Positions 3,356 through 21,026 of a stretch of 64,000 nt of DNA are shown here, piece by piece (position 1 is the stretch's first letter; every line of letters starts with the position of its first letter). The notes beneath the pieces are model-generated. The model saw only the letters and a list, made by a program, of their open reading frames with translations. It did no database searches and was not told where the DNA came from. Source of the DNA: Polystyrenella longa (GTDB lineage Bacteria > Planctomycetota > Planctomycetia > Planctomycetales > Planctomycetaceae); assembly GCF_007750395.1 (NCBI RefSeq), contig NZ_CP036281.1, forward strand, positions 4,735,001 through 4,799,000, in the 5' to 3' direction. Both the position numbers and the translations under genes were made by a program.

Positions 3356-4606
3356 TTAGTGCGACTGAGTCGAAACATCCAGCAGTGGGAGCATGATCGC
3401 CAGCACGATACCCGCGACAACCGCTCCTGTCACCACGATAATCGCCGGTTCGAGGACCTTCGTAAGCCCCTTGACCTGTCGTTCCCCTTCATCTTCAAAA
3501 AAGGAACCGACTTCAGTGAGAACCGTTCCCAGATTACCCGTCTGCTCAGCCGTCAGGACCATCTGGGCAGCGCCCCGGGGGATAAAATCGGCTTTCATAA
3601 ATATAGAGCCGATCGAACGCCCACTAATTACTTCGTCTTCCAGACGCTGAAATAGCGACTGATAATGCATGTTCTTCAAAGATCTTTGACAAAGCTGCAG
3701 CGATTCGAGTAGTGGAATCCCACTTTGTAGCAAGGTCCCCAAAAGCTGAAAAACCCTCCCAATCATTACAGCTTGCGAAGCCGCGCGAATCAGCGGAAAG
3801 TAAAGCAGGAAGGAATCGCGCCTGCGATGCGCTGATTCGGTCCTACTCCAGCAAAATAGACTCGCGGAACAAGCGATCGTCCCCAGCGACAATATCAGCA
3901 GGTTTTCACGAATCAGGCTGGAAATGTCGAGCAACAGTTGAGTAAACGGGGGAGCAACTGTTCCGAGATCCTGAAACACCTGGGCAAACTGCGGAAGTAC
4001 GAAAAAGATCAGCGCGAGAAGAACGAGACCACATACTCCAACCAATACAAGCGGGTAAGCCATGACCTGCTTCAATGTAGAAATTAGCCGAACCTCGTTG
4101 CGGATTAATTCCGCCATGCGATTAAGCACATGGGGTACGCGCCCGGCTGCTTCCCCCGCCGCGACGCTGGCGATGTAGGTAGCATCGAAAGCATGGGGTT
4201 GATTCTCAAGAGCCGCAGAAACCGATTTTCCATCGGAAACCTCTGAATGGATTTCCAGCAAAGTCTCGCGGAACGCCTCATGTGTGGTCTGTTGGGCGAT
4301 ATTATGAATTGATGCCGCCAGGTCAATTCCGGAGCGGCACATGATAGCCAACTGTGTAGTGAAGAACAGGATTTCGGTTCGCGGAATCTTCCTTCGTCTT
4401 GAAGGTTTGCTACGTTTGTTCAAAGTCAGTCTGCCCGACTTCTTTGATTTCTTCGAGCTTGTTTGATTAGATTTCGTCTCTGTTACAGAGAGTGGAAACA
4501 ATTGCTGTCGGCGCAGACTCTCTCGCGCCTCCTGTTCCGTATGTCCGTCGAGGACACCAGTGGAGATCTCGCCTGATTTGGATTTTGCTTTGTATGCATA
4601 AGGCAT
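3356..4606 (-). CDS. Type II secretion/type IV pilus platform protein (GspF/PilC)
   Basis: 416 residues, standard length. The N-terminus MPYAYKAKSKSGEISTGVLD is the usual PilC/GspF opening. Two T2SSF domains follow (about 75-200 and 275-400). Hydrophobic segments lie near 181-205, 236-255 and 385-410, giving the three-helix topology of the family. The basic, Lys/Arg/Ser-rich linker between about 47 and 73 is longer than usual. The protein is the inner-membrane platform on which the assembly ATPase acts, and the ATPase gene is the next one upstream (182-bp gap). Confidence 0.93.
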   Translation of the reverse strand: MPYAYKAKSKSGEISTGVLDGHTEQEARESLRRQQLFPLSVTETKSNQTSSKKSKKSGRLTLNKRSKPSRRRKIPRTEILFFTTQLAIMCRSGIDLAASIHNIAQQTTHEAFRETLLEIHSEVSDGKSVSAALENQPHAFDATYIASVAAGEAAGRVPHVLNRMAELIRNEVRLISTLKQVMAYPLVLVGVCGLVLLALIFFVLPQFAQVFQDLGTVAPPFTQLLLDISSLIRENLLILSLGTIACSASLFCWSRTESAHRRRDSFLLYFPLIRAASQAVMIGRVFQLLGTLLQSGIPLLESLQLCQRSLKNMHYQSLFQRLEDEVISGRSIGSIFMKADFIPRGAAQMVLTAEQTGNLGTVLTEVGSFFEDEGERQVKGLTKVLEPAIIVVTGAVVAGIVLAIMLPLLDVSTQSH

Positions 4607-4788: not shown

Positions 4789-6537
4789 TCAATCGGCAAA
4801 GGCCAGACGGACAACTTCATCCAGACTTGTGGAACCCGACTCGGCCAGTTTGATCCCTTCGTCGAGCAACGAATTGATGCCCTTCTTATCGAAGAGGTCG
4901 CGAACAGCGGACATATCATCCGAATGGGTGATCGCCTGACGGAATTCACGATCGATCGGCAAGACTTCATAAATCCCTGTTCGACCGGCGAACCCGGTAT
5001 CGTAACATTGAGCGCACCCTTCTCCCTTCGAAAACGAACGACGTGTGTCGCCGCTGTATTCAATCATCTGCAGCATTTCTTCGTTGGGATAGTATTTCGT
5101 CCGGCAGCGAGGACAGACTGTTCGAATCAGTCGTTGTGCCACTACCCCGACCAGCGCGGCCGATATCTTGTAGGGCATAATCCCCATGTCCATCAGTCGC
5201 GTAATGGCCCCGATGGTGCTGTTGGTGTGTAGCGTGCTCAATACCAGGTGACCTGTTAAAGACGCCTGTATCGCCATTTCTGCTGTCTCGGCGTCACGAA
5301 TTTCCCCAACCATGATCACGTCAGGGTCCTGTCGCAGGATTGACCGGAGTGCATCGCTGAAGGACAGATTCGCTGAAGGATTGGCGTGGACCTGGTTAAT
5401 CATGTCCAATTGATATTCCACCGGATCTTCTACCGTCACGATATTCGTGTGAACGGACTTAATTAGTTCCAGTGCGGAATAGAGGGTGGTCGTTTTACCG
5501 CTACCTGTAGGCCCCGTTACCAGCAGCAGTCCGTGCGGCTTCTGGAGCATTTTTTTAATCGGATTAAGTTGTTCGGAGGGAATACCCAGTTCGTTCAGAT
5601 TGAACGTCAGGTTCTTTCTATCGAGAACACGCATCACGACCTTTTCCCCTTTAACGGTGGGGAGCGTGGACACACGAATGTCGACCTCTCGATTATCAAC
5701 AACGACATGCATCCGGCCGTCTTGGGCTTGTCGGTGTTCGGCAATGTCCATACGAGCCATGACCTTCACCCTGGAAACGAGTGCAGCGTGAAAATCGCGG
5801 CGGGGACGCAATACTTCTCGCAACATTCCATCAACACGAAAGCGGATCGTCGTATGTTTCTGACCTGGCTCAATATGAATGTCGCTCGCACCCTGGCGAA
5901 TCGAATTCACAATGAAGTAATTTACCAGGTTGATAATCGGGCTGCCGTCGGCCATCGCTTCGGATGACTGTAAATCGAGCAGCATCGTATCGGCCTGCAA
6001 CTCGATTGCCGACTCATCGATATCGGCCGTCACGTGGTCTACTTGAAAGTCCTTTTCGTAACAGCGAGGTATCAGCCGTTCGATAGAAGACTTCAATGCG
6101 ATGACGGGCCTGACTGTCAAACCCGTGAGGCGTTCAACTTCATCGACCTGCCGCAAGTTTTGCGGCTCCGCCATGGCGACGAAGATTTCCTTACGCACTT
6201 TGAAAAGCGCAACCGCCTTCAACGTTTCCGCATGGGAACGAGGTATCATCTGTACGACTTTGGGGTCGACGATTCCCTCTCGCAGGCGTACGGAGGGAAC
6301 GCCCAGTTGTTGATTCAGGAATGGAAGAATTTCTTCTTCTTCAACGAGCCCCATGCGCGTCAGGATCTCTCCTAAACGCGTGTTGTCTTTTTCCTGGCGT
6401 TCCAGGGCGCGTTCCAAGTCATCCTGACTGAGGAGACCGGCGCGAACCAAGCGGGCCCCCAGCGGGAGCGACGCTTCGGGAACGTCCCACAGGGGGTCAT
6501 GTGTTTTGATTTTGGATGCGGGGGTCGCGATACTCAA
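4789..6537 (-). CDS. Type II secretion/type IV pilus assembly ATPase (GspE/PilB)
   Basis: 582 residues from a TTG at 6537 that overlaps the STAS stop (TTGA), with GGGGAG about 9 bases upstream. An MshEN-type N-terminal domain (about 25-165) precedes the hexameric ATPase core. The core has Walker A GPTGSGKTTT (about 345), an Asp box, Walker B VIMVGEIRD, and a His box with LSTLHTN. A four-cysteine zinc site (CPRC ... CAQC) lies near the C-terminus, as in PilB/GspE and not in the retraction ATPase PilT. It powers pilin extraction and polymerisation with the PilC-like platform. No pilT is present in the window. Confidence 0.95.
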   Translation of the reverse strand: MSIATPASKIKTHDPLWDVPEASLPLGARLVRAGLLSQDDLERALERQEKDNTRLGEILTRMGLVEEEEILPFLNQQLGVPSVRLREGIVDPKVVQMIPRSHAETLKAVALFKVRKEIFVAMAEPQNLRQVDEVERLTGLTVRPVIALKSSIERLIPRCYEKDFQVDHVTADIDESAIELQADTMLLDLQSSEAMADGSPIINLVNYFIVNSIRQGASDIHIEPGQKHTTIRFRVDGMLREVLRPRRDFHAALVSRVKVMARMDIAEHRQAQDGRMHVVVDNREVDIRVSTLPTVKGEKVVMRVLDRKNLTFNLNELGIPSEQLNPIKKMLQKPHGLLLVTGPTGSGKTTTLYSALELIKSVHTNIVTVEDPVEYQLDMINQVHANPSANLSFSDALRSILRQDPDVIMVGEIRDAETAEMAIQASLTGHLVLSTLHTNSTIGAITRLMDMGIMPYKISAALVGVVAQRLIRTVCPRCRTKYYPNEEMLQMIEYSGDTRRSFSKGEGCAQCYDTGFAGRTGIYEVLPIDREFRQAITHSDDMSAVRDLFDKKGINSLLDEGIKLAESGSTSLDEVVRLAFAD

Positions 6538-6869
6538 TGCGTATAACTCCCCACCGCAGAAAGGGTATCCGGGTAAACTTCAAACTTGCTTAGAAAACCA
6601 GTGATACGGAGGATGTCTTCACACACAGGATTCGGGGCAGCGAGTTTTAGATTGCCACCGCTGGAGAGACAGGATTCAAGCGAATCCAGCAACCATTCCA
6701 ATCCAGAGCTATCAAGCAGCGGTGTATTTTTAAAGCTGAATACAACTTTAGGTTGGCCCGCCTGTTTGCATTCCTTGAGGAGTTCGTCGATCTCTTCCAG
6801 ATAATCGCTCGTGAGCGCATCGGTACCTTCAATGATTGAAATAGCACCTTGTTTTTTTCGTGAATACAT
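6534..6869 (-). CDS. STAS-domain protein (anti-sigma-factor-antagonist type)
   Basis: 111 residues from the ATG at 6869, which has AAAGGGG 9 bases upstream. A longer in-frame start would overlap the kinase gene and lacks a ribosome site. The whole protein is one STAS domain with the LLDSSGLEWLL motif (DSSG at about 53-56), whose serine is the phosphorylation site in SpoIIAA/RsbV proteins. The gene lies between a sensor kinase and the pilus ATPase and overlaps the ATPase start. It may therefore act in partner switching that controls pilus assembly. No RsbW-type anti-sigma kinase is adjacent, so its partner is unknown. Confidence 0.85.
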   Translation of the reverse strand: MYSRKKQGAISIIEGTDALTSDYLEEIDELLKECKQAGQPKVVFSFKNTPLLDSSGLEWLLDSLESCLSSGGNLKLAAPNPVCEDILRITGFLSKFEVYPDTLSAVGSYTH

Positions 6870-6882
6870 TCGATCGGCCCCT

Positions 6883-8301
6883 TTATTGCATTGGCAACTG
6901 GACGGTGAACTGGGTTCCTTTATCAATCTCAGATTGAATCAGGATTTGTCCGCCATGAAGTTCAATGACTTCGCTTGTATAAGCGAGACCAATACCATTG
7001 CCGGGAATGTCTCGAACCCGGGGATCGCTACTGCGGAAGAATTGCTCGAAGATTCGGCTGATCTCTTCATCGCGAATACCAATACCACTGTCTTCAATAT
7101 GAAAATGCATCGACGAACCAACCTGTTCCACACGGAAAAGAACCTTGCCCCCCTCCATCGTGTACTTGGCCGCATTCCCGAGTAAATTAACCAGCGAGGC
7201 CACAATTTTGTCTTTGTCGACGCTGATTTTGCTCAGTTTGGGAGGGACGTTCAATTCGAAGGCGATCTGTTTCTGCTCCATCTGAGGTTTGACATTTTCG
7301 CAGACTTCTTCAATCAAACGCAGCAGGTCCGTTTCATTTCTCGTAATGGACAGAGAGCCGGCTTCGATCTGTTTGATATCAAGTAAACTGTCTACGAGGC
7401 GGGCGAGCCGAGTTGCTTCGCTGTTGATGATATTGCAAAAGTTTTTGTGATCTTCAACATCCATATCATCCGCTGTCTGCAATGTTTCCGCATAGGCTTT
7501 AATATTCGCCAGTGGCGTTCGCAGTTCATGAGTCGCAGAAGAAAGAAACTGGTCTCGCATTTCGTCGGCCAGTTTATTCTGTGTTACATCCGAGAAATGC
7601 CAGAGGAGCATCCGGTCCCTATTTACGATTGGACGCGTTTTGATGGAGACAACGCCATCACTCGTCTGATCGCCCAACGCGATTTCGAAGTTCATCGGAC
7701 GATTCGCTTTAATCATCTGCTCCAGTTCGGGAATACGTTCGTATAATTCGTCCGGGAGGATTTCTGCCAAGGTCTTCGTCTTCACTTCTTCAGGCAACTC
7801 AACATTGAGAATGGCACCGAAAGAGAGATTTGCATATTGAATCATGCCTTCGTCGTTGGTGACGACAATGCCTTCAGACAGATTTTCGAGGGCCTGAGTA
7901 CTAAGTTGGTCATGCGAAGAGTTGATCTCGCCGCAGACGCGTTCCTCAAGAACCTGGAGTGATTCCTGATGAGCCATTTTTTCGGCCAACTTGTTCCAGG
8001 CCAACACCAGTGGTTGGCTGGAATTCATGATAGGATCGAGAGAAAAACGACCCGTCTGGTCACCGATGACTCCTAGCAACCTGCTTTCCAGGTATCCCAG
8101 AACTCGAATATCACGGGTAAGCAGATAACTTCCCACCACCACAATCACCAGTGGACCGACAAAGCATAGCGCGAGATAAACAGGGAGAACCTCACTAAAG
8201 CTGCTTCCCCACTGGAGAATCCCCCAGATCAGCGCGCAGCTCAAAACATAACAAAGAATTAACCTTTGTTTTGTAGTCAGGTTGTGCAGGATGGCGCTCA
8301 T
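6883..8301 (-). CDS. PAS-domain sensor histidine kinase in the pilus cluster
   Basis: 472 residues. Two membrane helices (about 14-31 and 38-61) have almost no loop between them, so a large periplasmic sensor is absent. A linker and a PAS domain (about 130-240) follow, then HisKA with the phosphoacceptor in THELRTP (His258). The HATPase_c domain has an N box near Asn376, a G1 box DSGIGI (about 404-409) and a G2 box GNGIGLA. Signals are probably read in the membrane or by PAS in the cytoplasm. It lies 13 bases upstream of the STAS gene, and the likely partner is the single-domain receiver encoded upstream. It resembles PhoR/ResE-class kinases. Confidence 0.92.
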   Translation of the reverse strand: MSAILHNLTTKQRLILCYVLSCALIWGILQWGSSFSEVLPVYLALCFVGPLVIVVVGSYLLTRDIRVLGYLESRLLGVIGDQTGRFSLDPIMNSSQPLVLAWNKLAEKMAHQESLQVLEERVCGEINSSHDQLSTQALENLSEGIVVTNDEGMIQYANLSFGAILNVELPEEVKTKTLAEILPDELYERIPELEQMIKANRPMNFEIALGDQTSDGVVSIKTRPIVNRDRMLLWHFSDVTQNKLADEMRDQFLSSATHELRTPLANIKAYAETLQTADDMDVEDHKNFCNIINSEATRLARLVDSLLDIKQIEAGSLSITRNETDLLRLIEEVCENVKPQMEQKQIAFELNVPPKLSKISVDKDKIVASLVNLLGNAAKYTMEGGKVLFRVEQVGSSMHFHIEDSGIGIRDEEISRIFEQFFRSSDPRVRDIPGNGIGLAYTSEVIELHGGQILIQSEIDKGTQFTVQLPMQ

Positions 8302-8550
8302 TGTGTTTATCGATCAGAGAAATGATACCTGGCTTAAGAATGAATCTATTCGAGATAACCAGTTTGGCGTCGTACTGAAAGAGGGTTACCGTTCCAGAAA
8401 GGAACAGAAGAGGTGAAGTCACATCGAATGTGATTTTCGTCTCTTTCAATCGCGCTTATTCTGAATGTACTTGCTATCGACTAATTTCCGCAGTCGTAAC
8501 TTACATTCCAAGTTGGATGAGAATTCATTCAACGATTAAATTTTAACGAT

Positions 8551-8946
8551 TTAACTTTTATTGACCGTTTCAGAGAGAGTCTCATTAATGAAATTAACAA
8601 TCTCTCGAGGACTGAAAGGTTTGTAAAACAGTTTGATAACCTGGAGTTTTTCAGAGAGTTCATCCGGGTTTAACTCGAACCCTTTGGCAGAACACATTGC
8701 CAGAGGAACCGATTCGTAACCCGGAGTCTTCCGCATCTGTAAAGCAAAGTCATATCCGCCCATTTGCGGCATTTGGTAGTCTGAGATGATGAACTCAATC
8801 GCATGCTGGTTGATGATCTCAAGGCCTTCGACACCATTGTTGGCGACGAATACTTCGTAACCTGCCCTCTGTATATTGAATCGCAATACAGATGACATTG
8901 CCTTATTGTCTTCAACAACCAGTATCCGTTGCGGTACAGAACTCAT
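8551..8946 (-). CDS. Single-domain response regulator (CheY-like receiver)
   Basis: 131 residues from the ATG at 8946; a TTG four codons earlier is possible. This is a complete receiver domain with an acidic pocket in VVEDN, the phosphoacceptor Asp56 in FIISDYQMP, Ser86 in place of the usual Thr/Ser switch, and Lys109 in LFYKPF. There is no DNA-binding or enzymatic output domain, so it should act by protein contact, as CheY or PilG/PilH do. It sits between the major pilin gene and the sensor kinase, which makes a local phosphorelay controlling pilus activity likely, though unproven. Confidence 0.92.
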   Translation of the reverse strand: MSSVPQRILVVEDNKAMSSVLRFNIQRAGYEVFVANNGVEGLEIINQHAIEFIISDYQMPQMGGYDFALQMRKTPGYESVPLAMCSAKGFELNPDELSEKLQVIKLFYKPFSPREIVNFINETLSETVNKS

Positions 8947-9065
8947 TTTCGGGCCCAATTCCTTTGGCGATCTGAACTCGTAAGAGTCTCATCGCTCCCT
9001 GTATTTCTTTAGCTTAGTCCTCGGCAAGTCAACAACATCTGTTACCGACTTATACTGATACCAAG

Positions 9066-9476
9066 TTACCAGGAAATATAGTCTGCGTGATTAATGGCGA
9101 TATCGCCAGATGTTTCATTGTAGACCCAACCGTCTCCGCCTGTTTTGACAGCCAGAGGATCCGCAGTTGATGCTCCCACTGTAGCGGTCTTGCTACCGAC
9201 GTGTGGTGCGGGAAACGGTCCTTTAAGGTAATCGGCCAGTTGAGTGCTGATAGTGGCTGCAGCGGGAAAACTACCGTTTTTTGCGCGGTACAATTCAATC
9301 GCTTCTCGCAGCACTGTTAACGACTGCTTTGAGGCGTTGTCACGTGCATCGGACGCTGTATCAAACATTTTCGGAGTCGCGATTGCGGCGATGATTCCGA
9401 GAATCAGTACTACGACTACTAATTCAACCAGTGTGAATGCGTTTCGTTTTTTTGACTTAGGAAGCGTGTTGATCAT
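9066..9476 (-). CDS. Major pseudopilin/type IV pilin-like protein (GspG-type)
   Basis: 136 residues. A short basic leader (KSKKRNA) is followed by the prepilin helix FTLVELVVVVLILGIIAAIATP. The residue before the cleavage point is Ala, not the usual Gly; Glu at +5 is present. The C-terminal part has the GspG-like pattern of a helix plus a short beta region, with AKNGSFPAA and GGDGWVYNETSGDIAIN. It is the first gene of the minus-strand pilus operon. Upstream GAGGAATACGGGAA provides a ribosome site. It is probably the main fibre subunit of the system whose minor subunits are encoded divergently at 10086-15058. Confidence 0.88.
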   Translation of the reverse strand: MINTLPKSKKRNAFTLVELVVVVLILGIIAAIATPKMFDTASDARDNASKQSLTVLREAIELYRAKNGSFPAAATISTQLADYLKGPFPAPHVGSKTATVGASTADPLAVKTGGDGWVYNETSGDIAINHADYISW

Positions 9477-10085: not shown

Positions 10086-10634
10086 ATGTTCAATTCGTCA
10101 CATATAATCAGATGGCAATCAATCCACAGAAGAGATCAATCTCGGATCTGCGGCTGGTCGACGAAACTGCGACGTGACGGACATGCCCGTTCTGGGGTGA
10201 CATTGATCGATCTAGTACTGACGATCATCATCATCGGCATTCTATCTGCAGTGGCAATGCCTCGATTTTCGAAGGCGATTGAGGAACAGCGTGTTCGGGC
10301 CTCTGCCAGACGAATTAAGGCCGACCTGGAACTGGCGGCTCGCTACTCCCGATCAAACAGTCAGTCGGAAACGATTACTTTCAATACAGACGATCACTCT
10401 TATAGCTTTTCCAGCTTTAAAGATATCGACCATTCGTCCCAAGCTTATACCGTCTGGCTGAATACATCTCCTTATCACTCCACGATTCAATCCCTGGACC
10501 TGGACGACGGATCGGTCACTTTTAATGCTTATGGCATTCCCAGTACCGATTTGGAAATATCCGTCACCAATGGAGACCTGACCAAAACAATTACGATGGA
10601 ATCAATCACAGGACAAGTTCAAATCCAGGAATAA
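10086..10634 (+). CDS. GspH-like minor pseudopilin
   Basis: 182 residues. A long N-terminal leader of about 37 residues precedes the cleavage motif, ending in ARSG and followed by VTLIDLVLTIIIIGILSAVAMP. Asp replaces the conserved Glu at +5. A helix rich in Arg/Ala (about 70-100) and a beta-rich C-terminal domain follow, typical of GspH/FimT. No better ribosome site or nearer start was found, and the leader is unusually long for a type IV prepilin. First gene of a four-gene plus-strand pseudopilin series; 62 bases separate it from the next. Confidence 0.82.
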   Translation: MFNSSHIIRWQSIHRRDQSRICGWSTKLRRDGHARSGVTLIDLVLTIIIIGILSAVAMPRFSKAIEEQRVRASARRIKADLELAARYSRSNSQSETITFNTDDHSYSFSSFKDIDHSSQAYTVWLNTSPYHSTIQSLDLDDGSVTFNAYGIPSTDLEISVTNGDLTKTITMESITGQVQIQE

Positions 10635-10696: not shown

Positions 10697-12352
10697 ATGG
10701 CTATTCACCCAACCCGTAGCGGATATACACTCATCGAGTTAGTCGTGAGTATCGGTGCCAGTACTGTACTGGTTCTGGGGCTGGGATCTTCCATGTATCT
10801 GGCTGGACAGGCGCTGGCTCCGTCGGAATTGCTTACAAATACACTAAACGCTACGGAGGTTCTGCATAACCTGACCGACGATGTACAAAACGCGATTTAC
10901 CTTTCCGAGCATACTGATAACGTTATTGAGTTCGTTGTTCGGGACATGAATGGAGACAGTGTTCCCGATGTCGTCCGCTATGAATGGAGTGGCACACCAG
11001 GGGATCCGTTGATCAAAAAGTTCAATTATGGTTCCCCAGTTCAACTGATCGATGCAGTCCAGAACTTCGAACTGAAATATAATACGCGTTCGACCACTGA
11101 AGAATTCCCACCTAGCTTGATCGAAAGTGAAGAACAATTAATCGGTGGTGCGTTAATTTCCTTCTCTGGAACTCAACGAGTCTCCGCCATATATGAGGCT
11201 GGTTGGCCAGGTTTTTACTTTGTTCCGGTGATAGCGGATGGAGCCGAATCCTGGAACGTTACCAAAGTCAAACTTGGATTATCCCAATACGACGTAAGCG
11301 ATAACGGCAGTTTCTATCTTCAACTTCGATCCGCAACGGCAGGCCACATCCCCACGAGTGAAGTGCTGGAGCAGACTCTGGTACTGGAGAGTTCACTCAG
11401 TAGTTCATTGACTCTCAAAGAATTCAACTTCTCCGCTGTGAAGGGTTTATTACCAACTGATCGACTCTGCGGTGTACTACAACACCTAGACGGAACATAC
11501 TCTGGCAAAGTCAAAAGTCACTATCGGAATGGTGAACCTTATGCTCATGCAGTTAGATCAAATAATCAGGGGTCGAGCTGGTTCTCTGAGGAAGACGAGA
11601 TAGTCTATCACGAGGTCTGGGGAACCTATTATTACGGATCAGATAATGGAATGACGGTTGATCGGAACTATTTCACCGGTTTGAACGTGACATTGCAGTT
11701 GGGAAACACAACGGAGTCACAAGTTCGCACCGGGATTCCGCTCTTGAATTCCCCCGAATTACTGGTGGGTCTCTGGGAACTCGATTTTGACAATGACCCT
11801 TTAACGGCCGACACCAACTTCGACAATCTCAACGACTGGAGCTTGAAAGAAGGGGGCACCTTCGACACGGAAACACTTGCTCAAGGTGTTTGGGAATCCG
11901 ACGAAAGCATACTACGCACCGCACCCGATCACGACTTTCTGGAACCGACGACGGTGGTGGTTCGCCTGCGAGCAACAACCACAGGAGGGGAGGGGGCCGT
12001 CTTCGAAATGTATTCCGACTGGGATAATTCAAATGCCTTCGCTCTCCGAGGTCGCGTCACCCGCGAAACGAATAACACTCAAACTTATACCGCCGAGTCT
12101 CAATCATCTCCGGGCGTCTGGAACCAAGTCGTTCGCGTAGAGAATTTACCTCTCGATTTCATCGAAGTCCGAGTCGTCATCAGCCCCGATGATATGAATC
12201 ATGCCCAATTTCTACAGGGCAATCTGCTTGACAATTACACTTACTCGCGAGTATCGACAGACAATACGAAGAAATATGTATCGCTTTACGAATCAGGCTG
12301 TGATGCAGAGTTTGATTACATTTCCATACGCGTATCCGAACAACCGGAATAG
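10697..12352 (+). CDS. Minor pseudopilin with two large extracellular beta domains
   Basis: 551 residues, far longer than a normal GspJ/PilW (about 200). It has a prepilin site RSG/YTLIELVVSIGA with Gly9 at -1 and Glu14 at +5. A GspJ-like region runs to about residue 150. One beta-sandwich-like domain lies at about 160-330, with a pattern of L, G and P spacing seen in choice-of-anchor type extracellular domains. A second lies at about 345-551, of LamG/concanavalin-like appearance and rich in aromatic and Asp/Asn residues. The pilin part is seen clearly; the fold of the two C-terminal regions is inferred from composition and length. It may be a tip adhesin. Confidence 0.8.
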   Translation: MAIHPTRSGYTLIELVVSIGASTVLVLGLGSSMYLAGQALAPSELLTNTLNATEVLHNLTDDVQNAIYLSEHTDNVIEFVVRDMNGDSVPDVVRYEWSGTPGDPLIKKFNYGSPVQLIDAVQNFELKYNTRSTTEEFPPSLIESEEQLIGGALISFSGTQRVSAIYEAGWPGFYFVPVIADGAESWNVTKVKLGLSQYDVSDNGSFYLQLRSATAGHIPTSEVLEQTLVLESSLSSSLTLKEFNFSAVKGLLPTDRLCGVLQHLDGTYSGKVKSHYRNGEPYAHAVRSNNQGSSWFSEEDEIVYHEVWGTYYYGSDNGMTVDRNYFTGLNVTLQLGNTTESQVRTGIPLLNSPELLVGLWELDFDNDPLTADTNFDNLNDWSLKEGGTFDTETLAQGVWESDESILRTAPDHDFLEPTTVVVRLRATTTGGEGAVFEMYSDWDNSNAFALRGRVTRETNNTQTYTAESQSSPGVWNQVVRVENLPLDFIEVRVVISPDDMNHAQFLQGNLLDNYTYSRVSTDNTKKYVSLYESGCDAEFDYISIRVSEQPE

Positions 12353-12413
12353 CGTTTTCGCAAAACCACGCCAACTTTCTTACCTCACCGACAATCAGTA
12401 ACGACGACTAAAC

Positions 12414-13265
12414 ATGAACAAGCGTCATCAAACAACCAGAAACTTCTCGTCTCGCAAAGCCGGTTTGAGCCTGCTTGAAGTGGTGATGAGTACGTTATTG
12501 ATTTCTATCCTGATGTTGACAGCCTTGCGAACAGTCGGCGCATCGTTTCGAGCCGAGTTTTTTACTGCTCAGCAGACTCAGGCAATGCTGTTTGCAGAAG
12601 ATTTATTGTCTGAGATCATTCAGATGGAATACGAAGAACCCGTCGACCCAGTTTCCTTCGGTAGAGAAACGGGCGAAGTGGGCACCAACAGAACAACATG
12701 GGATGACGTCGACGACTACAACGGCTGGACTTCCTCACCACTGCAATATCAGGACGGAACAGAAATCCCTGACACAAGCTCCTGGACCCGTGCAGTTTCT
12801 GTCCAGTTCGTATTGGCTGACTCTCCAGACACGACCACCAACGACGATGAAGGCTTGAAGAAGATTACCGTCACTATCTCGAAAAACAATGTCGTTCTGG
12901 GTTCCTTGTCTGTTCTCCAGTCGAAGGCTTGGATTAACACGATTCCGGATCCGAACAATAATCTCAGTACGGGTAGCAAACCCTCTGTAAACCAGTCACC
13001 CATCGCTGTTGCGTCGGCCAGCCCGACTTCTGGTACAAGTTCCGTGAACGTCCAGTTCGATGCGACAAACTCGTCCGACTCGGATGGTGACTCAATCACT
13101 TTTTCCTGGGATTATGGCGACGGAAGTTCAGGCACTGGCTCTAAACCTTCCCATACTTTTACGAATGGAACTGGATCCACTCTCGTTCGGATTGTCACCC
13201 TGACGGCCAGCGACAGTTCGGGGGCTCAGGCAACTAAGACCTTAACGATCACCATCAATCCCTGA
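12414..13265 (+). CDS. GspI/PilV-like minor pseudopilin with C-terminal PKD domain
   Basis: 283 residues. A basic leader is followed by KAG/LSLLEVVMSTLLIS, with Gly17 at -1 and Glu22 at +5. The GspI-like region (about 18-170) is followed by a linker and a PKD domain (about 198-283), recognised by NQSPIAVASASP, a VQFDATNSSDSDGDSI stretch and the WDYGDGSSG core. PKD domains are extracellular Ig-like folds in surface and polysaccharide-binding proteins. A pseudopilin carrying one is unusual. It lies 61 bases after the long GspJ-like gene and 56 before the CBM-containing gene. Confidence 0.85.
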   Translation: MNKRHQTTRNFSSRKAGLSLLEVVMSTLLISILMLTALRTVGASFRAEFFTAQQTQAMLFAEDLLSEIIQMEYEEPVDPVSFGRETGEVGTNRTTWDDVDDYNGWTSSPLQYQDGTEIPDTSSWTRAVSVQFVLADSPDTTTNDDEGLKKITVTISKNNVVLGSLSVLQSKAWINTIPDPNNNLSTGSKPSVNQSPIAVASASPTSGTSSVNVQFDATNSSDSDGDSITFSWDYGDGSSGTGSKPSHTFTNGTGSTLVRIVTLTASDSSGAQATKTLTITINP

Positions 13266-13321
13266 TTTGCTGTCATTGACTTCCATTCCACTCATTCTGT
13301 CCTCTTTTCGATCAATCATTC

Positions 13322-15058
13322 ATGTTCACGAAATCCCCAACTTCACCAGCTAAATCAAAAAGGCGGGGCAGTATGTACCTTTCGGTACTGATGGTCTCGG
13401 TGCTGGTCTCGTTGTTGGGTATGTCCGCATTAGTGGTGAAACGTGTCCAACGGCGGAACCATCAATCATCAATGGACGCCAGTCAGGCACGATTCATAGC
13501 GCAATCCGCCTTGCGGATCGGCATGCTCGATATCGAAAATGATCCCAACTGGCGATATAACTTTCCCAACGGAACATGGAAGGATGACGTTGCGCTGCTG
13601 GGAGGAAAGTACACACTGGAAGCTTACGACCCATCCGATGGAGACCTTGCCAACAACCCTGAAGAACCTGTTGTGCTGGTGGCGACCGGCGTCGTTGGTT
13701 CCGCTCGTCAGAAGACACAACTTACATTAACGCCCGTGAACCGAGGTTACTCATTTTTAGAGAAAGCCCTTGTCAGCCAGCACGACATCAAGGTTGAAGA
13801 GAACACTTACCTCTACTGTAATCAAATCCTGGCATCGAATCACGATTTCGATGCACAGAGCGGTAGCTCTATCGTTGCCGATGTAGAAGCCGAAAATGAT
13901 GTAAAAGGTAGTGGTACATATTACGGTACAACAGAGGAAGAAATTCAACAGGAAGCTTTTCCAGAGACTGATGATATTCTCAGTTACTATCTGGCGCGGG
14001 GAACTGAAATTGACTACAGCAGCATTCAAGACAAAGCGGTCAACATCATTAAGAATGATACGTTTGAGACGAATATCGATTTATGGGAAGCGGATAGCTG
14101 TTCGATATCTAAAAGCGAAAGCTGGCCTTACGCTGGTGCGTCCAACTTACTGTGCAGCAATCGTAACTCGGTAAGCGATGCCGTCACCTATGATGTGACG
14201 AATCGAATTGCCAAAGGAGAGACATACAACCTCACCTTCTGGGGCCGTTCTTCGGGAATCACCTACGACGCGTTCAGCGTCATTATAGAAACTGACGCCT
14301 CTTCCAGCGGAGTACAGCAGGTCGTTGCGAATACTGGACTGATGATGCCGTACTGGGTTCAATACACCGTCTCTTTATCTCCTAACTGGAGTGGAACCCT
14401 CAATTCTGCAAAGATCAGAATCCAGACCCGTTATAGCAGCGTCAGTTTCAATATCGACAATGTTTCTTTCAAAGAACCCGACCCGCCCGCTGGTACGATT
14501 TATAAACGAGTCATAAGTCCCAACCATAACCCTTACGGGGAAACAAATCCTGATGGGATTTACTTTATCGACTGCGGAGGAAGCGCCCTGGGAATTGATA
14601 CTTGCCGTATTCTGGGCACGCTGGTCGTTCTCGATTCCGGAGACAGCAGCCAGATTTATCCTGGCCCGATTGCCTGGTCCACTGTGGAGCCCAACTTTCC
14701 CTGTTTGCTGGTCGATGGAAAGTTCAACATTAACGCCACCAGTGACGGTCTGAACGAAACTCGAGATGAAGTGAATTACAACCCGATTGGGGCGGCTCAC
14801 AATACGCTCGGCGAAGATGATGACATTGTCGATACGATTCCGTCGAAAATCTCGGGCCTGATCTACGTCAGCGATGACCTGGTTTTTGACAACCAGGCGA
14901 ACATCGAAGGAGTGGTACTCGGTGGTAATAAAATTACCATCGAAGATACATTCTCGCTGGTTTACAATTCCATCTTCTTTACCAACCCTCCCCCCGGTTT
15001 CAGTGCCCCGGAGACGATCCGCATTCTGTTGAACTCCGTCCAGAAACCGCTCGACTGA
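13322..15058 (+). CDS. PilX/GspK-like minor pseudopilin with a CBM4/9-like domain
   Basis: 578 residues. A basic leader (KSKRRG) precedes a hydrophobic helix SMYLSVLMVSVLVSLLGM; there is no +5 Glu, as in several GspK/PilX proteins. The pilin-like region runs to about 235. Residues about 241-386 look like a carbohydrate-binding CBM4/9-type jelly roll: it opens NDTFETNIDLWE, has YNLTFWGRSSG in mid domain and closes with FNIDNVSFKEP. The C-terminal part (about 400-578) is beta-rich and resembles the polymer-forming surface domain found in planctomycete PilX-like proteins. Last gene of the minor pilin series. Confidence 0.8.
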   Translation: MFTKSPTSPAKSKRRGSMYLSVLMVSVLVSLLGMSALVVKRVQRRNHQSSMDASQARFIAQSALRIGMLDIENDPNWRYNFPNGTWKDDVALLGGKYTLEAYDPSDGDLANNPEEPVVLVATGVVGSARQKTQLTLTPVNRGYSFLEKALVSQHDIKVEENTYLYCNQILASNHDFDAQSGSSIVADVEAENDVKGSGTYYGTTEEEIQQEAFPETDDILSYYLARGTEIDYSSIQDKAVNIIKNDTFETNIDLWEADSCSISKSESWPYAGASNLLCSNRNSVSDAVTYDVTNRIAKGETYNLTFWGRSSGITYDAFSVIIETDASSSGVQQVVANTGLMMPYWVQYTVSLSPNWSGTLNSAKIRIQTRYSSVSFNIDNVSFKEPDPPAGTIYKRVISPNHNPYGETNPDGIYFIDCGGSALGIDTCRILGTLVVLDSGDSSQIYPGPIAWSTVEPNFPCLLVDGKFNINATSDGLNETRDEVNYNPIGAAHNTLGEDDDIVDTIPSKISGLIYVSDDLVFDNQANIEGVVLGGNKITIEDTFSLVYNSIFFTNPPPGFSAPETIRILLNSVQKPLD

Positions 15059-15301: not shown

Positions 15302-16273
15302 ATGTCTGTGCTGCTTCGCCTGTCGCTGTTTATTATGGCCTTGAGTTATGTCGTATTAACGACGGAACGGACATTGTGCGCGGAAGAAGTTGCTTCACCT
15401 CTCGTCGAAGTGACCACCAGCAATGGGCGTGAAATCCGGGGCCTTGTCGATAGCCGAACCAACGGCGCCGAACTCGTTCTGACCGTCACTTCAACCGACA
15501 TTCAAGTCAACAGCCATCTTCCCTGGAGTTCCATCTCTTCAATCCGTTTGGGTGGTCACACGTTAACACTCGAAGAGCTGAAAGCGGAATTACCTGCGAT
15601 TCAATCCGACTTCAATATGCGGCCTGCTTTTGGCGGATGGACGTCCGAAGGCATTCACATTTCCCAGATTTCAGCAATTGAGGACGGTTACCTGCAGCCA
15701 TTTCCTGTTGAGCCTGCTGTGGGCTTCTATCCACCTACCCCCGAATATCGGCAGGACGTTCCTCGCGTCGCCAGTTTGAACATCACCGCCCGCGTTGCCA
15801 ATTGGGACCGAGATCCTGAACGAGATGGTTTATTAGTAGAAGTACAACCCCTTTCAGCGACGGGCGAAATCATTCCCGTGACCGGTCAACTCGAATGTGA
15901 ATTAATCATCCAGCACAAAACATGGAGAGGGGGCGAATATATCGAGCGCCTCGACTCTCGTTTTTCCGTACTCGACCGTTGGACCGATCCAGTGAAAGCG
16001 GACCAGTTCTATTCTCTAGGCATAGTTCAAGGCACAGTGATTCAACTTCCCTATCGTGTCCGTCATCCTGAAGCCCGGCTGAACATCGACTCGGATGCTC
16101 TTTTGCATGCTCGTCTCAAGGTCCCCGGTCAGGGTGTTTTTGAAGCTTCGTATGCAATCGTGCGGCTTCGTCCGTACAGCTCCATTCGAGATGATTATCA
16201 ACAGTATCGCGGCCAACGCTATTTCCCTCAGGAGCGAGCTCGCTTTATTCCCCGCAATCCCCTCCATCGCTAA
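15302..16273 (+). CDS. Secreted protein of unknown function
   Basis: 323 residues with a clear signal peptide (about 1-27, ending near TLCAEE). A GAGAGGAAC ribosome site sits 8 bases before the ATG. Residues about 32-70 form a small beta unit (VEVTTSNGREIRGLVDS ... WSSISSIRLG) similar to the short SH3-like beta modules common in secreted planctomycete proteins. The rest is beta-rich with several Tyr/Trp and a Pro-rich Tyr segment (about 135-150), and the C-terminus is basic. I do not recognise a family. It precedes the bufferin-like cluster but is separated from it by a palindrome, so joint function is uncertain. Confidence 0.8.
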   Translation: MSVLLRLSLFIMALSYVVLTTERTLCAEEVASPLVEVTTSNGREIRGLVDSRTNGAELVLTVTSTDIQVNSHLPWSSISSIRLGGHTLTLEELKAELPAIQSDFNMRPAFGGWTSEGIHISQISAIEDGYLQPFPVEPAVGFYPPTPEYRQDVPRVASLNITARVANWDRDPERDGLLVEVQPLSATGEIIPVTGQLECELIIQHKTWRGGEYIERLDSRFSVLDRWTDPVKADQFYSLGIVQGTVIQLPYRVRHPEARLNIDSDALLHARLKVPGQGVFEASYAIVRLRPYSSIRDDYQQYRGQRYFPQERARFIPRNPLHR

Positions 16274-16434: not shown

Positions 16435-16974
16435 ATGGAGTTAACTCCAGAAAAACTGAATAGACGTGATTTCAGCCAACTAACCATGGCCGCCATGGGT
16501 GGATTACTGGCCGGTACTGCCGCCGGTTGCGGGACGGGAGAATCTGCACCTGCAACAACTGAGACAGCTGAAGCTCACGATGAGCATGAAGAGCACGACG
16601 ACGACCATGATCACGATCATGACGTTGAAGCTGCCGAAGGTGGAATTCCAGAAGACTGGAAAGAAATCATCACCTCTGGCAAAAACGTCTGCCGTGGTCT
16701 GAACCAGTGCAAAAACCACCGCGAAGAAGCAAACGACTGTGCGGGAACGGGCGCCTGCTACACGGCGAACAAACATACCTGCCACGCCGACAACGACTGC
16801 AAAGGGCAGGGCGGATGTGGTTCCACTTCGGGACGCAACTCCTGCAAAGGAAAAGGCGAATGTTCCGTTCCGTTGAACGATAAAATTTGGGCCACCACCC
16901 GCACCGCGTTCGAAGAAGCGATGAAAGCGGCCGGGAAAGAATTCGGCGAAGCACCCGCAAAAGTCGAATCCTGA
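16435..16974 (+). CDS. Tat-exported Cys-rich metal-binding RiPP precursor (bufferin-like)
   Basis: 179 residues. It has a Tat signal RRDFSQL (Arg10-Arg11) and a hydrophobic stretch ending in TAAGC, so Cys32 may be lipidated. A His/Asp/Glu-rich segment (about 48-63) follows. The core (86-143) has nine cysteines at 86, 92, 102, 108, 116, 122, 128, 137 and 143, in a repeated C-X5-C pattern with Gly/Lys/Asn between. The tail (about 150-175) is a conserved-looking amphipathic helix. AAAGGAAC gives a strong ribosome site. The DUF692/MNIO and DUF2063 genes follow, as in bufferin clusters, where MNIO enzymes modify precursor cysteines to bind copper. Homology to the bufferin precursor families is by pattern, not by search. 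Confidence 0.82.
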   Translation: MELTPEKLNRRDFSQLTMAAMGGLLAGTAAGCGTGESAPATTETAEAHDEHEEHDDDHDHDHDVEAAEGGIPEDWKEIITSGKNVCRGLNQCKNHREEANDCAGTGACYTANKHTCHADNDCKGQGGCGSTSGRNSCKGKGECSVPLNDKIWATTRTAFEEAMKAAGKEFGEAPAKVES

Positions 16975-17020
16975 TTCTGATTTGAGGTGAAGCATCACTT
17001 CGACAGATTAATTCACGAAA

Positions 17021-17060
17021 ACGCACGTCGGCTCAGGTATAATGGTCTGACGTGCGTTTT
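17021..17060 (+). terminator. Intrinsic terminator/attenuator between precursor and MNIO genes
   Basis: A perfect 9-bp stem ACGCACGTC (17021-17029) / GACGTGCGT (17049-17057) with a 19-base loop, followed by a long T-run. It lies 47 bases after the precursor stop and 24 before the MNIO GTG. Partial readthrough would yield more precursor than enzyme mRNA. The loop also contains TATAAT (17038-17043), a possible -10 box for a second promoter. Confidence 0.75.
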
Positions 17061-17080
17061 TTTCTTTCAGTTGCTTCGCT

Positions 17081-18061
17081 GTGTCTTTCCCGCAGCCTCT
17101 TTCCCGTAGCGAATTCGAATTAGCAGATTCAATCATGACGGAAGCTCGACTTGGACATCCTGACCTGGGACTGGGGCTCGGATTGCGATCCTGCCATTAC
17201 CAGTACATTCTCGACCAACAGCCCGATGTGGACTGGTTCGAAATCATCTCCGAGAACTACATGAACTCGGAGGGTCGACCGCGACACATTCTCAACCAGA
17301 TCGCGGAACGTTATCCACTGGTGATGCACGGTGTCTCCCTTTCCATCGGCAGCACCGATCCGCTGAATTTCGATTATCTCGATGGCCTGAAGAAACTCGC
17401 AACAGAGATCAACGCCCGTTGGGTCTCTGATCATATCTGCTGGACAGGAATCGCCGGTCGCAATACCCACGATCTGCTTCCCATTCCTTATAACGAAGAG
17501 ACCTTAGGTCATCTCACGGCTCGAATTCAGACCGTACAGGAATATTTGGGGCGACCGCTGGTTCTGGAAAACCCGTCCAGCTATATCACCTTCGCCGCTT
17601 CAACAATGGCGGAGGAAGAATTCATAACTCGTCTTGTCCGTCAAACAGGTTGTGGATTGTTGTTGGATGTGAACAACGTCTATGTCAGTTGTTACAACCA
17701 CGACGCCGATCCACTCGACTACATTCGCCGCTTACCGCACGAATCGATCGTGCAGTTTCACCTCGCCGGTCACACTAATCTAGGAACGCACTTAATTGAC
17801 ACCCATGACGGGCATGTGGTTGATCCTGTCTGGAATCTCTACCGTGAAGTCTGTCAGCTAACGGGAAATGTTTCGACCTTGCTGGAGTGGGACGCTCAAA
17901 TTCCTGAGTTTCCAGTGTTGTTTGCCGAAGTTCAGAAAGCCAAAAAGTTTCGCGATGGCGGCCTGACAACTCCCTTCGAGGAGCAATCTCCACCCGAACA
18001 ACCCGTCGCCCGTTCTGCCGTTCCCCATCCAACCACGCTGACGATGATCGAATACGAGTGA
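17081..18061 (+). CDS. DUF692-family multinuclear non-heme iron oxygenase (MNIO, bufferin/MbnB type)
   Basis: 326 residues from the GTG at 17081; an ATG at 17135 (18 codons in) is an equally plausible start, since neither has a clear ribosome site. It is a TIM-barrel DUF692 protein whose conserved metal-ligand motifs are all present: MHGVSLSIG (His83), SDHICW (Asp117, His118), NTHDLLP (His130), LENPSSY (Glu163), [11 protein letters not shown] (Asp196), FHLAGH (His227, His231), IDTHDGH (Asp240, His242) and LLEWD (Glu269). Family members use two or three irons and O2 to rearrange peptide cysteines, as MbnB does in methanobactin. The upstream Cys-rich protein is the likely substrate and the DUF2063 protein (3 bases downstream) the likely partner. 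Confidence 0.92.
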
Positions 18062-18064
18062 GTA

Positions 18065-18955
18065 ATGGACAGGCCCGATTCCGCTTCAATCTTTAAACTG
18101 CCCGTACTGCAACAATGGATGCAACTGGTCATTACGCACCCCCAAGGAATCGAGGGCGGCATTCAATCGTCCACCGCACAGGAGCAGGTTCCAGTCGATC
18201 TCGAATCACTTGAATCCGTCATCCCACGTTCCCGGCAACTGACGAGCCTCCAACGCCTGCAAGTTTATGGAAACGCTTATTACGCGCGTCTGGTCGATTG
18301 TCTGGGGGAAGAATTTCCTGCGCTGCATTATGGCCTGGGCGAAGAAACTTTTTCAGGTTTCGCGTTCGCCTATCTGCAATCGTACCCATCCACCAGTTAT
18401 ACACTCGATGATTTAGGCAGGAACTTTCCGACCTTCCTGGAAGAAACGCGGCCCCGTGATCCAGACAGCGGGTGGGCCGATTTTCTGATCGATCTTGCTC
18501 GGCTGGAACGGACGTATGCCGACGTTTTTGATGGTCCTGGAATGGAAGATGAATCGCCCCTCAACATCGAGCAACTCGCCGCTATTCCGCCCTCCGATTG
18601 GGAACGACTCTGCCTCACTCCGGCACCCTGCTTGCGACTCCTGGAACTCCAATACCCCATCCACCTGTATGCGACTGCTGTCAAAAAAGAAGAACAACCC
18701 AGTTTCCCCACTGCGGAAAAAACGTGGCTGGTCATCTTTCGGTCTGAGTACATCGTGCGGCGAAGGGCTGTGGACGAGACGCAATTTCGGCTTCTGGAAA
18801 GATTGATCTCCGGGGTCACCTTGGGGGCAGCACTCGAATCGACCATCCCCGACGAATGGTTCGACAATGGAAATCTGCAGCAGACTTTGCAGGAATGGTT
18901 TACCTTTTGGGCAAAATGGCGGTTCTTTTCCGGGTATCGATTAGAACAATCATAA
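18065..18955 (+). CDS. DUF2063-family partner of the MNIO enzyme (BufC/HvfC-like)
   Basis: 296 residues, starting 3 bases after the MNIO stop. The N-terminal DUF2063 domain (about 10-130) is recognised by LTSLQRLQVYGNAYYARLVD, then FPALHYGLGEETF and YPSTSYTLDDLGRNFP. A second alpha/beta domain (about 155-290) follows. In bufferin and related clusters this protein binds the precursor leader and delivers it to the DUF692 oxygenase. The pairing of DUF692 with DUF2063 is standard. The gene ends the cluster; no dedicated exporter, regulator or DoxX-like gene follows. Confidence 0.88.
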   Translation: MDRPDSASIFKLPVLQQWMQLVITHPQGIEGGIQSSTAQEQVPVDLESLESVIPRSRQLTSLQRLQVYGNAYYARLVDCLGEEFPALHYGLGEETFSGFAFAYLQSYPSTSYTLDDLGRNFPTFLEETRPRDPDSGWADFLIDLARLERTYADVFDGPGMEDESPLNIEQLAAIPPSDWERLCLTPAPCLRLLELQYPIHLYATAVKKEEQPSFPTAEKTWLVIFRSEYIVRRRAVDETQFRLLERLISGVTLGAALESTIPDEWFDNGNLQQTLQEWFTFWAKWRFFSGYRLEQS

Positions 18956-19138: not shown

Positions 19139-21007
19139 GTGTCGCTGACTGAACTTGCCACACAATTAAAAGATTTAAAAACGGCGACGGAGAAACTCCA
19201 TCACGTCAGTCATCTGCTCCAGATTGCACCACTCAAAGAACGGGAATGGTTTCAGTTAATCGAACATAAACTGTTGCCTCAGATGCAACAGGATTCGTTC
19301 CTGATCGCCGCTGTCGTCGGTGGAACCAACATTGGCAAAAGCGCGATCTTTAATCGGCTTGCCGGGGAACAAATCAGCTCGGTTAGTCCGCTCGCATCGG
19401 GAACCAAACATCCTGTATGTCTTGTCCCAACCGGGTTTAATGATCGCCATCAACTGGACGACATCTTCAATTCTTTTGAATTACAAAAATGGGCCGACGC
19501 GGACGAAGCATTGCAGGAATCGGACACCGACTACCTCTTCTGGCGAGAAGCGGAAAACCTACCGCCGAACCTGCTGATCCTCGACACTCCCGACATCGAC
19601 AGTGACGCGATGGTCAACTGGGATCGAGCCGACAAGATTCGCTTGACTGCCGACGTGTTGATTACCGTCCTGACTCAGCAAAAATACAACGACGCCGCTG
19701 TAAAAGAGTTCTTCCGAAAAGCGGCTGCGGAAGACAAAGTCCTGATGGTTGTCTTCAACCAATGTCAGCTTCCCGAAGATGAAGAATACTGGCCCATCTG
19801 GTTAGAGACATTCTGCGCGACGACAGGGGCACGCCCGGAATACCTGTATCTGGTTCCCAGTGACCGGACTGCCGTCACCGAGAATCGACTTCTCTTCCTG
19901 GAACGCGAATATCGCCAACCGGGTGAAGCTGCTTCACAGACGACGAATGAAAACACCACTTCCTCCAGCGACCTCGCAACCGACTTATCACAGCTCAAGT
20001 TTCAGGAAATCAAACTGCGAACACTTCAAGGTTCACTGAAAGAAGTCCTTCATCCACAGAAGGGGGTCTCCGGATTTCTGACTGAAATCGAACGGGTTAG
20101 CCAGGAGTTCCGCGTCGCGGCAGAAAAGATCTCGACGGAAAGTGTCACTCAGATTTCTGATTGGCCCATTCTACCGAATTCAATTCTCGTACATGAAATC
20201 CGCCAATGGTGGAAAGATCACCAGACAGGCTGGGCCCGAAATGTGCAATCGGTCTACGATACGGTTGGAGCAGGGATCACTAAGCCATTCAAAATGCTCA
20301 AAGCCAGTCTCGGTGGGGAAACAACTTCTCCACTCGAAGAATATCGGAAGCGGGAACGGGCGGCTCTGTTGAAGACAGTCGAGGAAATCTTCAAAACCCT
20401 TAGTTGGATGCGGGACTCCTCCTCTACGTTGATCCGTCCGAACTTCGAAAAAGCCCTCGCCGGTCACGACCGTGCGAAACTTCTCGAGAGACTCAAAGCT
20501 CGACATGACGCCTTCGATTTGAAGCATGATCTTAAACAGGTCGTACATCAGGAGATGAGTCTGTTCCAAAAGAACAATCCAGAAGCCTATCGGCTTTATC
20601 AAAACTTAAATCAAGCTTCCGCCGCAGTACGCCCCGTCACCAGCGTGGCCTTGTTCACTTTGGGATGGGGACCTGCTGGCGAACTTGTTGCCCCTGTGGT
20701 CGTCCCTTTTGTTGCTGACTTCATTACGGGGACCGTGACCGCCGTCGCGGGCGAACAGGCAGTCACCTCCACTGCGAGTTCCGGAATTGGATTCCTGCAG
20801 TCCAAGTTTCAAAAACTACAGGACCATTTCACGCGGATACGTGTCCAGTGGATGGTTGAGCTGATCAAGGAAGAACTACTGGGGAACCTACCGGGTGACC
20901 TGCAACAGGCAGCGTCCTTGAATGAATCTCCAGAATTCAAACAAGTCGAAGCGGCTCTCCTTGAATTAAAACAGCAAATGAAAACTGTCGAACAATCTGT
21001 CAACTGA
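19139..21007 (+). CDS. Large dynamin-like/YeeP-type GTPase A
   Basis: 622 residues from a GTG at 19139. The G1 loop GGTNIGKS (61-68) is intact. The switch region has SPLASGTKHPV and G3 is LDTPDID. The expected G4 (N/T-K-x-D) is replaced by FNQCQ near residue 203, so guanine specificity is uncertain. Helical regions follow, with a hydrophobic, Ala/Gly/Val-rich stretch at about 500-545 that could insert in a membrane, and a coiled-coil tail. Length and layout fit bacterial dynamin-like or 50S-binding GTPase relatives. The second GTPase follows 19 bases downstream. Function is unknown; membrane remodelling is a reasonable guess. Confidence 0.75.
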   Translation: MSLTELATQLKDLKTATEKLHHVSHLLQIAPLKEREWFQLIEHKLLPQMQQDSFLIAAVVGGTNIGKSAIFNRLAGEQISSVSPLASGTKHPVCLVPTGFNDRHQLDDIFNSFELQKWADADEALQESDTDYLFWREAENLPPNLLILDTPDIDSDAMVNWDRADKIRLTADVLITVLTQQKYNDAAVKEFFRKAAAEDKVLMVVFNQCQLPEDEEYWPIWLETFCATTGARPEYLYLVPSDRTAVTENRLLFLEREYRQPGEAASQTTNENTTSSSDLATDLSQLKFQEIKLRTLQGSLKEVLHPQKGVSGFLTEIERVSQEFRVAAEKISTESVTQISDWPILPNSILVHEIRQWWKDHQTGWARNVQSVYDTVGAGITKPFKMLKASLGGETTSPLEEYRKRERAALLKTVEEIFKTLSWMRDSSSTLIRPNFEKALAGHDRAKLLERLKARHDAFDLKHDLKQVVHQEMSLFQKNNPEAYRLYQNLNQASAAVRPVTSVALFTLGWGPAGELVAPVVVPFVADFITGTVTAVAGEQAVTSTASSGIGFLQSKFQKLQDHFTRIRVQWMVELIKEELLGNLPGDLQQAASLNESPEFKQVEAALLELKQQMKTVEQSVN

Positions 21008-21026
21008 ACGAACACCGACATTCCCT

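Follow-up and report, generated by a model that had tools for sequence, protein, structure and literature searches.

Minor pilins with additional domains in Polystyrenella longa

The 64,000-nucleotide stretch of DNA analysed here (the window) comes from contig NZ_CP036281.1 of the complete genome (6,125,480 bp) of Polystyrenella longa Pla110T, a planctomycete from polystyrene particles of the Baltic (PMC7716846). It contains a type IV filament locus with four adjacent minor pilin genes, encoding a GspH-like protein, PilW, PilV and PilX, and the last three of these proteins carry additional folded domains (modules). The four proteins probably constitute the H-J-I-K set, responsible for the priming and capping of type IV filaments, and probably assemble jointly. 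On balance, we favour the reading that the locus encodes such a filament with a multi-domain, glycan-directed binding head at its tip; display of the modules at the tip is likely, a glycan ligand of the predicted modules is plausible and a role in polysaccharide uptake is speculative. Modular pilins are already known (PMC8179133), and one glycan-binding example has been solved (PMC9934059). The new features are the presence of modules on three adjacent tip subunits, with two of the modules being internal insertions at fixed sites, and the phylum-wide distribution of the operon, where identical sites are filled, empty or hold other modules. The range of modular pilins thus grows from one grafted subunit to a tip set with modules on three of its four members. 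Since the proteins of the locus are named, their domain borders are defined and each module has matched relatives that lack it, the binding of single modules can be tested directly, and the locus is a testable candidate for how planctomycetes grip sugars or surfaces.

A preliminary description of this DNA had reported three consecutive pilin genes, and their coordinates and lengths were confirmed. A class III prepilin signal is visible in each protein: TRSG/YTLIE in PilW, RKAG/LSLLE in PilV and KRRG/SMYLS in PilX (the slash follows residue -1). The gene of the GspH-like pilin, absent from that description, completes the H-J-I-K set. Searches with the N_methyl hidden Markov model (HMM) gave weak matches for PilW and PilV (E-value about 0.007) and no match for PilX. 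Homologues were collected with a PilV profile containing the DDVDDY motif, and the best 80 Planctomycetota loci of at least 320 relatives were analysed; these loci are the best matches to a query that itself included PKD-bearing sequences, and the module counts given below are therefore not frequencies. A strong full-length match to PilV was found in 17 of the 134 near-complete genomes of the family. A contig scan using PilX alone as the query found no relatives, and an alignment of distant PilX sequences gave no usable pattern.

The residue at position -1 is Gly or Ala in nearly all homologues of the three proteins. Glu5 is present in 57 of 59 PilW homologues, with Asp in the remaining two, in all 66 PilV homologues and in none of the 51 PilX homologues. 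The K subunit of type IV filament tips generally lacks Glu5, so the pattern meets the expectation for J, I and K subunits in which K is the cap; the capping of the tip complex by the K subunit is described in PMC4471445 and PMC9934059. The order of the four genes is kept in relatives, and the W-V-X order is kept in most of the 80 loci. PilX is accordingly regarded as K-like by its position and by the Glu5 pattern, and not as GspK by the fold of the cap, since its model shows a beta-solenoid and a carbohydrate-binding module (CBM). Relatives of PilV across Planctomycetota share a near-invariant acidic motif, (W/F/Y)DD(V/I)DDY, at aa 96-105 of the P. longa protein (window positions 12699-12728), which is possibly a subunit interface or a metal site.

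Predicted folds of the modules

AlphaFold2 modelling, using alignments of 51 sequences for PilX and 59 sequences for PilW, gave mean predicted local distance difference test (pLDDT) values of 91.5 and 94.0, respectively. The predicted structure of PilX contains a long pilin helix and pilin strands, followed by a beta-solenoid that is broken by a jelly roll at aa 237-388. A Pfam search assigned aa 241-370 to CBM_4_9 (E-value 1.9e-14); the VIA comparison revealed similarity between the insert and CBM22-1 of Xyn10C (4xup_E; Z-score 20.4, root-mean-square deviation (rmsd) 2.0 Å, 148 residues aligned), and a profile of 12 inserts matched CBM22 in the PDB with an E-value of 3.1e-15. Foldseek aligned the whole length of PilX with the Thermus pilin ComZ (6qvi; E-value 1.9e-7), with a low TM-score of 0.2-0.3.

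The PKD domain of PilV scores above the Pfam gathering thresholds of both PKD_4 (61 bits vs. 27) and PKD (29.6 vs. 23.5), and its relatives in the PDB are mostly PKD domains of collagenases. In the alignment of PilW with its relatives, the first extra domain lies between pilin strands, and the second one extends the protein at its C-terminus. The VIA comparison related the first domain to the baseplate protein of phage phi812 (9euj_G; Z-score 16.2, rmsd 2.8 over 155 residues) and the second to the lectin domain of the Vibrio cholerae sialidase (2w68_B; Z-score 16.0, rmsd 2.5, 161 residues aligned), with GH16 and GH43 sandwiches nearly tied (Z-score 13-15). Neither of the two domains has a match in Pfam or NCBIfam, and a PDB sequence search with the PilW tail gave no useful match.

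The structure predictions and the Pfam searches are thus in agreement with the preliminary description in that CBM and PKD folds, rather than ordinary pilin extensions, are present, the PKD domain being found in the 283-aa protein named there. The same description had placed a CBM4/9-like jelly roll at the C-terminus of the 578-aa protein and two beta domains at the C-terminus of the 551-aa protein; the folds were recovered, the latter two by a confident model and matches to solved structures, but the CBM is internal, with the solenoid resuming after it, and only the second domain of PilW is C-terminal.

Variation of the modules among relatives

The insert of PilX shows a bimodal length distribution, with 9-22 aa in 40 proteins, 168-186 aa in 11 and no lengths in between; CBM_4_9 was detected in 12 of the 51 PilX proteins. 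The CBM also occurs at other sites: in locus L106 it is found at a second, near-C-terminal site of PilX, in L130 a CBM_4_9 domain takes the middle site of PilW in place of the jelly roll, and in L095 it is located on the tail of PilV. The middle domain of PilW is missing in 4 of 59 homologues, where the flanking pilin strands are retained. Other modules include PA14 on a PilW and PKD or LamG on PilV. All three modules occur together in the window, in two congeners, in a Fuerstiella (L041) and in L042. Mapped on a tree of pilin cores, the labels require three changes for the CBM, two for PKD and two for the PilW tail. Comparison within the genus shows purifying selection on every module, and the claim from dN/dS is confined to this, codon-based dS being saturated among the three congeners; the divergence of the CBM and of the PilW middle domain is roughly double that of the scaffold, and PKD changes most slowly. 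As judged from the sequences, the retention of modules across diverged genera is not explained by chance similarity.

Large C-terminal extensions of PilV, exceeding 200 aa, were observed in loci L044, L061, L048 and L093; Pfam scans of the first three found no module in the tail. A divergent V-W-X-H minor pilin cluster (L128:5895-10050, L140 and L141), occurring in Planctopirus-like and other genomes, encodes PilX-like proteins of 626-659 aa with almost no Pfam matches.

A possible glycan-directed binding head

The proposed mechanism is as follows. Priming and capping of a type IV filament would be the task of the H subunit together with PilW (J), PilV (I) and PilX (K), with PilX as the cap, and the divergently encoded neighbouring PilB/PilC/PilM-N-O machinery would build the filament. 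The modules, carried by the three largest subunits of the tip, would form a multi-domain binding head at the tip of the filament, where the PKD domain of PilV may serve as a spacer or stabiliser; plausibly, the head binds extracellular polysaccharide or glycoconjugate, for adhesion or capture. Control of the filament by cyclic di-GMP (c-di-GMP) is probable, given the MshEN domain of PilB, and this domain, together with an HD-GYP-like gene near the minor pilins in the loci of 33 relatives (e.g., L033:11990-13678 and L034:3795-5483), suggests that c-di-GMP and a switch between sessile and motile states govern the system; the window locus itself has no HD-GYP-like gene.

The best argument for glycan binding, an indirect one, is that modules of carbohydrate type have been recruited repeatedly, and at several sites of their carriers. 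Known systems provide partial parallels. In Streptococcus sanguinis, PilC carries a lectin module and PilB a vWA module; as in P. longa, a binding module is grafted on a pilin stalk with a proposed position at the tip, and a concanavalin-A-like fold is found on one subunit, as on P. longa PilW (PMC9934059 and PMC8179133). Unlike in S. sanguinis, modules are present in P. longa on three consecutive subunits of the H-I-J-K set, and two of them are internal and not C-terminal grafts; moreover, glycan binding by the lectin module of S. sanguinis PilC was measured (PMC9934059), whereas the P. longa modules are known from sequence and models. The available text of these two papers names neither CBM22-like nor PKD modules, and the survey of modular pilins with carbohydrate-type domains in the latter includes a Planctomycetes bacterium as one representative (PMC8179133). 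ComZ of Thermus thermophilus (6qvi) is a minor pilin with a large beta-solenoid in its pilin domain, as is PilX, but PilX has an additional CBM inside the solenoid and the TM-score is low. The xylan-binding CBM22 modules (4xup/4xuo and 1dyo) resemble the PilX insert in fold and profile; they belong to xylanases, while the PilX module belongs to a pilin, and their cleft residues are not kept in it. In the same PVC superphylum, the mucin-utilisation locus MUL2 of Akkermansia, with PilM-like Amuc_1101 and pilin-like Amuc_1102, represents a pilus-like system tied to glycan use; CBM-bearing tip pilins are not described for it in the available text of PMC13174399, and the similarity of the window PilM to the Amuc_1101 family is weak (E-value 1e-6, far under the family cut-off). 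In addition, according to work cited in a 2024 comparison, the type IV pili of Fimbriiglobus promote attachment to chitin (PMC11131199).

A number of observations weigh against this reading. A CBM or lectin fold alone is no proof of sugar binding, enzyme sandwiches and phage baseplate domains gave similar Z-scores, and a PKD domain by itself is not a glycan binder. The xylan-binding cleft of CBM22 1dyo, which we take to comprise R25, W53, Y103, Y136 and E138 (mutants of R25 and E138 are visible in PDB entries 1h6x and 1h6y), is not kept in the window CBM, where the profile alignment places D, S, V, R and Q at these positions. None of the 12 inserts has R25 or W53, and the Y103 position is occupied by F or Y in four of them; a MAFFT alignment shifts the last two cleft positions and agrees on R25 and W53. 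The only invariant columns of the insert alignment, W255 and D379, look structural. Most homologous operons are without one or more of the modules, which are therefore dispensable for the pilus itself. The model of PilX contains only short helices beyond the stalk, and the alpha-helical cap domain of the GspK type was not found in it. As for the machinery, the NCBIfam equivalogs of GspE, GspF and GspG were not reached (567, 299 and 49.9 bits vs. cut-offs of 630, 424 and 88.9), and neither was that of the type IVa PilB (566.8 vs. 675.65), so by these cut-offs the window system is neither a standard type II secretion system nor a standard type IVa pilus; neither a secretin nor PilT is encoded in the window locus. 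Finally, a genome consistent with Planctopirus contains only the divergent V-W-X-H cluster, whose PilW- and PilX-like proteins gave no module in Pfam searches.

The last point bears on published work, where gold-labelled dextran bound to pili-like fibres from crateriform structures of Planctopirus and Gemmata (PMC5394234); the fibres of P. longa likewise come from crateriform structures (PMC7716846). Because the Planctopirus-like genome has only this divergent cluster, in which Pfam found no module, the dextran result is not transferable to the modules of P. longa, and a link between the locus and the dextran-binding fibres of Planctopirus was rejected. A literature search found no paper naming the genes of dextran-binding planctomycete fibres. 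A retained CBM22 xylan site was also rejected, given the loss of the cleft residues in the alignment; the sequence is compatible with a CBM22-like fold that possibly has another ligand. Thus, the view put forward in the preliminary description, of a fibre tip binding polysaccharide, stands as regards the tip-complex gene set and the two carbohydrate-type folds and loses the support that the R25 and W53 positions could have given; its association of planctomycete pilus-like fibres with polysaccharide holds for dextran-binding fibres elsewhere and does not extend to the divergent cluster of the Planctopirus-like genome.

Alternative explanations

Adhesion rather than nutrition is a serious contender, which we lean only slightly against: the tip modules would bind the matrix of the cell itself or of its neighbours, or the surface of a host or alga, leading to polar fibres, rosettes and attachment. 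Loose polar fimbriae do join P. longa cells into rosettes, and crateriform structures are the origin of the fibres (PMC7716846). The combination of MshEN in PilB with HD-GYP genes in relatives is as expected of a sessility switch, and the faster evolution of the CBM and of the PilW middle domain would suit a surface ligand; modules of carbohydrate folds, however, would suit a soluble polysaccharide equally well.

It is unlikely that the modules act as passive, ligand-free spacers, which might, for example, hold the filament tip past the outer layers. The loss of the CBM22 cleft residues and the gain and loss of modules between relatives fit such a role, and PKD domains are often spacers, but the repeated recruitment of CBM_4_9, LamG and PA14 at several carrier sites would be hard to explain.

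We regard as still less likely a secretion pseudopilus similar to the type II secretion system (T2SS), whose modules would recognise or push out exoenzymes and not bind environmental ligands. The PilA, PilC and PilB-like proteins score about equally with the GspG, GspF and GspE models and with those of type IV pili, and a T2SS substrate touches the pseudopilus tip (PMC4471445). Against this, the genome has its own GspE-F-G-H-I-J-K-L-M cluster at 4.61 Mb (G000:C1:4608000-4622000, L143), the window locus contains PilM/N/O-like genes and not GspL/M, with no GspC/D, and CBM, PKD, LamG and PA14 modules would be unexpected for cargo sorting; the window locus as the T2SS of the genome was rejected because of the separate cluster. 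The GspK of that cluster has 547 aa, and acidic Ser/Glu-rich insertions are present in its H and J proteins.

Least of all do we expect a role in DNA uptake, with PilX as a ComZ-like solenoid pilin binding DNA in transformation and the CBM as a side feature: ComZ is thought to bind DNA (PMC8179133) and the Foldseek match covers the full length, but the TM-score is low, no competence genes were seen adjoining the operon and such a role would leave the PKD domain, the CBM and the lectin-fold module unexplained.

With regard to the glycan-directed head, an extended version, in which the exchange of modules at the fixed J, I and K sites adapts the head to the local polysaccharide before this is gripped and drawn in via the crateriform structures for selfish uptake, seems quite improbable as it stands.

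Locus layout and neighbouring genes

The features of the locus are listed in Table 1. On the plus strand, the genes from position 10086 onwards encode the GspH-like pilin, PilW, PilV, PilX and a secreted protein; on the minus strand, from position 9476 leftwards, the order is the GspG/PilA-like pilin, REC protein, histidine kinase, STAS protein, PilB, PilC, a small protein, PilM, PilN-like and PilO-like proteins. PilB scores above the cut-offs of NF053729 and of the MshE-type c-di-GMP motif. The STAS/histidine kinase/REC trio beside PilB is kept in several relatives. The secreted protein has no Pfam match, and its homologues adjoin PilX wherever the operon is complete. Secretins are encoded at other places in the genome, and PilT (432 bits, above the cut-off) is located in a separate locus at 4.644 Mb.

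Table 1. Features of the type IV filament locus of P. longa (window positions).
Feature	Position	Strand	Evidence
PilO-like gene	402-1034	-	Position and anatomy only
PilN-like gene	1133-1750	-	Position and anatomy only
PilM	1741-2847	-	TIGR01175, E 6.4e-19, under cut-off
PilP-like gene	extends past left end of window	-	Position and anatomy only
PilC/GspF-type platform protein	3356..4606	-	T2SSF, E 1.1e-49
PilB/GspE-type assembly ATPase with N-terminal MshEN c-di-GMP-binding domain	4789..6537	-	T2SSE, E 6.3e-141; MshEN, E 1.6e-14
STAS protein, histidine kinase, REC-only protein	6534..8958	-	TIGR00377; kinase models; Response_reg, E 1.5e-17
GspG/PilA-like major-type pilin (136 aa), divergent orientation	9066..9476	-	N_methyl, E 1.1e-7; TIGR01710, E 3.2e-13, under cut-off
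GspH-type minor pilin	10086..10634	+	TIGR01708, E 2.8e-10, under model cut-off
PilW, GspJ-type minor pilin (551 aa) with two extra beta domains	10697..12352	+	Open reading frame (ORF), Glu5 motif, AlphaFold
Jelly-roll domain inserted in PilW amid pilin beta strands, aa 143-311	11123..11629	+	VIA, homologue alignment
Concanavalin-A-like lectin/glucanase-fold tail of PilW, aa 355-551	11759..12349	+	VIA; homologous tail in 13 loci
PilV, GspI-type minor pilin (283 aa) with C-terminal PKD	12414..13265	+	ORF, Glu5, DD(V/I)DDY motif
PKD domain of PilV, aa 193-281	12990..13256	+	PKD_4, E 1.2e-16
PilX, GspK-type minor pilin (578 aa): pilin stalk, beta-solenoid, inserted CBM	13322..15058	+	ORF, AlphaFold, Foldseek
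CBM22-like jelly roll within the PilX solenoid, aa 237-388	14030..14485	+	Pfam, VIA, profile match
Secreted protein of no known family, candidate partner	15302..16273	+	Follows PilX; homologues in 13 other loci

Two further groups of genes in the window were observed. Positions 16435-18955 encode a small Cys-rich protein with a Tat-like signal, an MbnB/TglH/ChrH-type enzyme (E-value 1.8e-109) of ribosomally synthesised and post-translationally modified peptide (RiPP) pathways and a DUF2063 protein, and by its predicted proteins this group looks like a bufferin-type metal-binding RiPP cluster. At positions 19139-22874, two adjoining genes encode dynamin-like/GTPase proteins of 622 and 615 aa.

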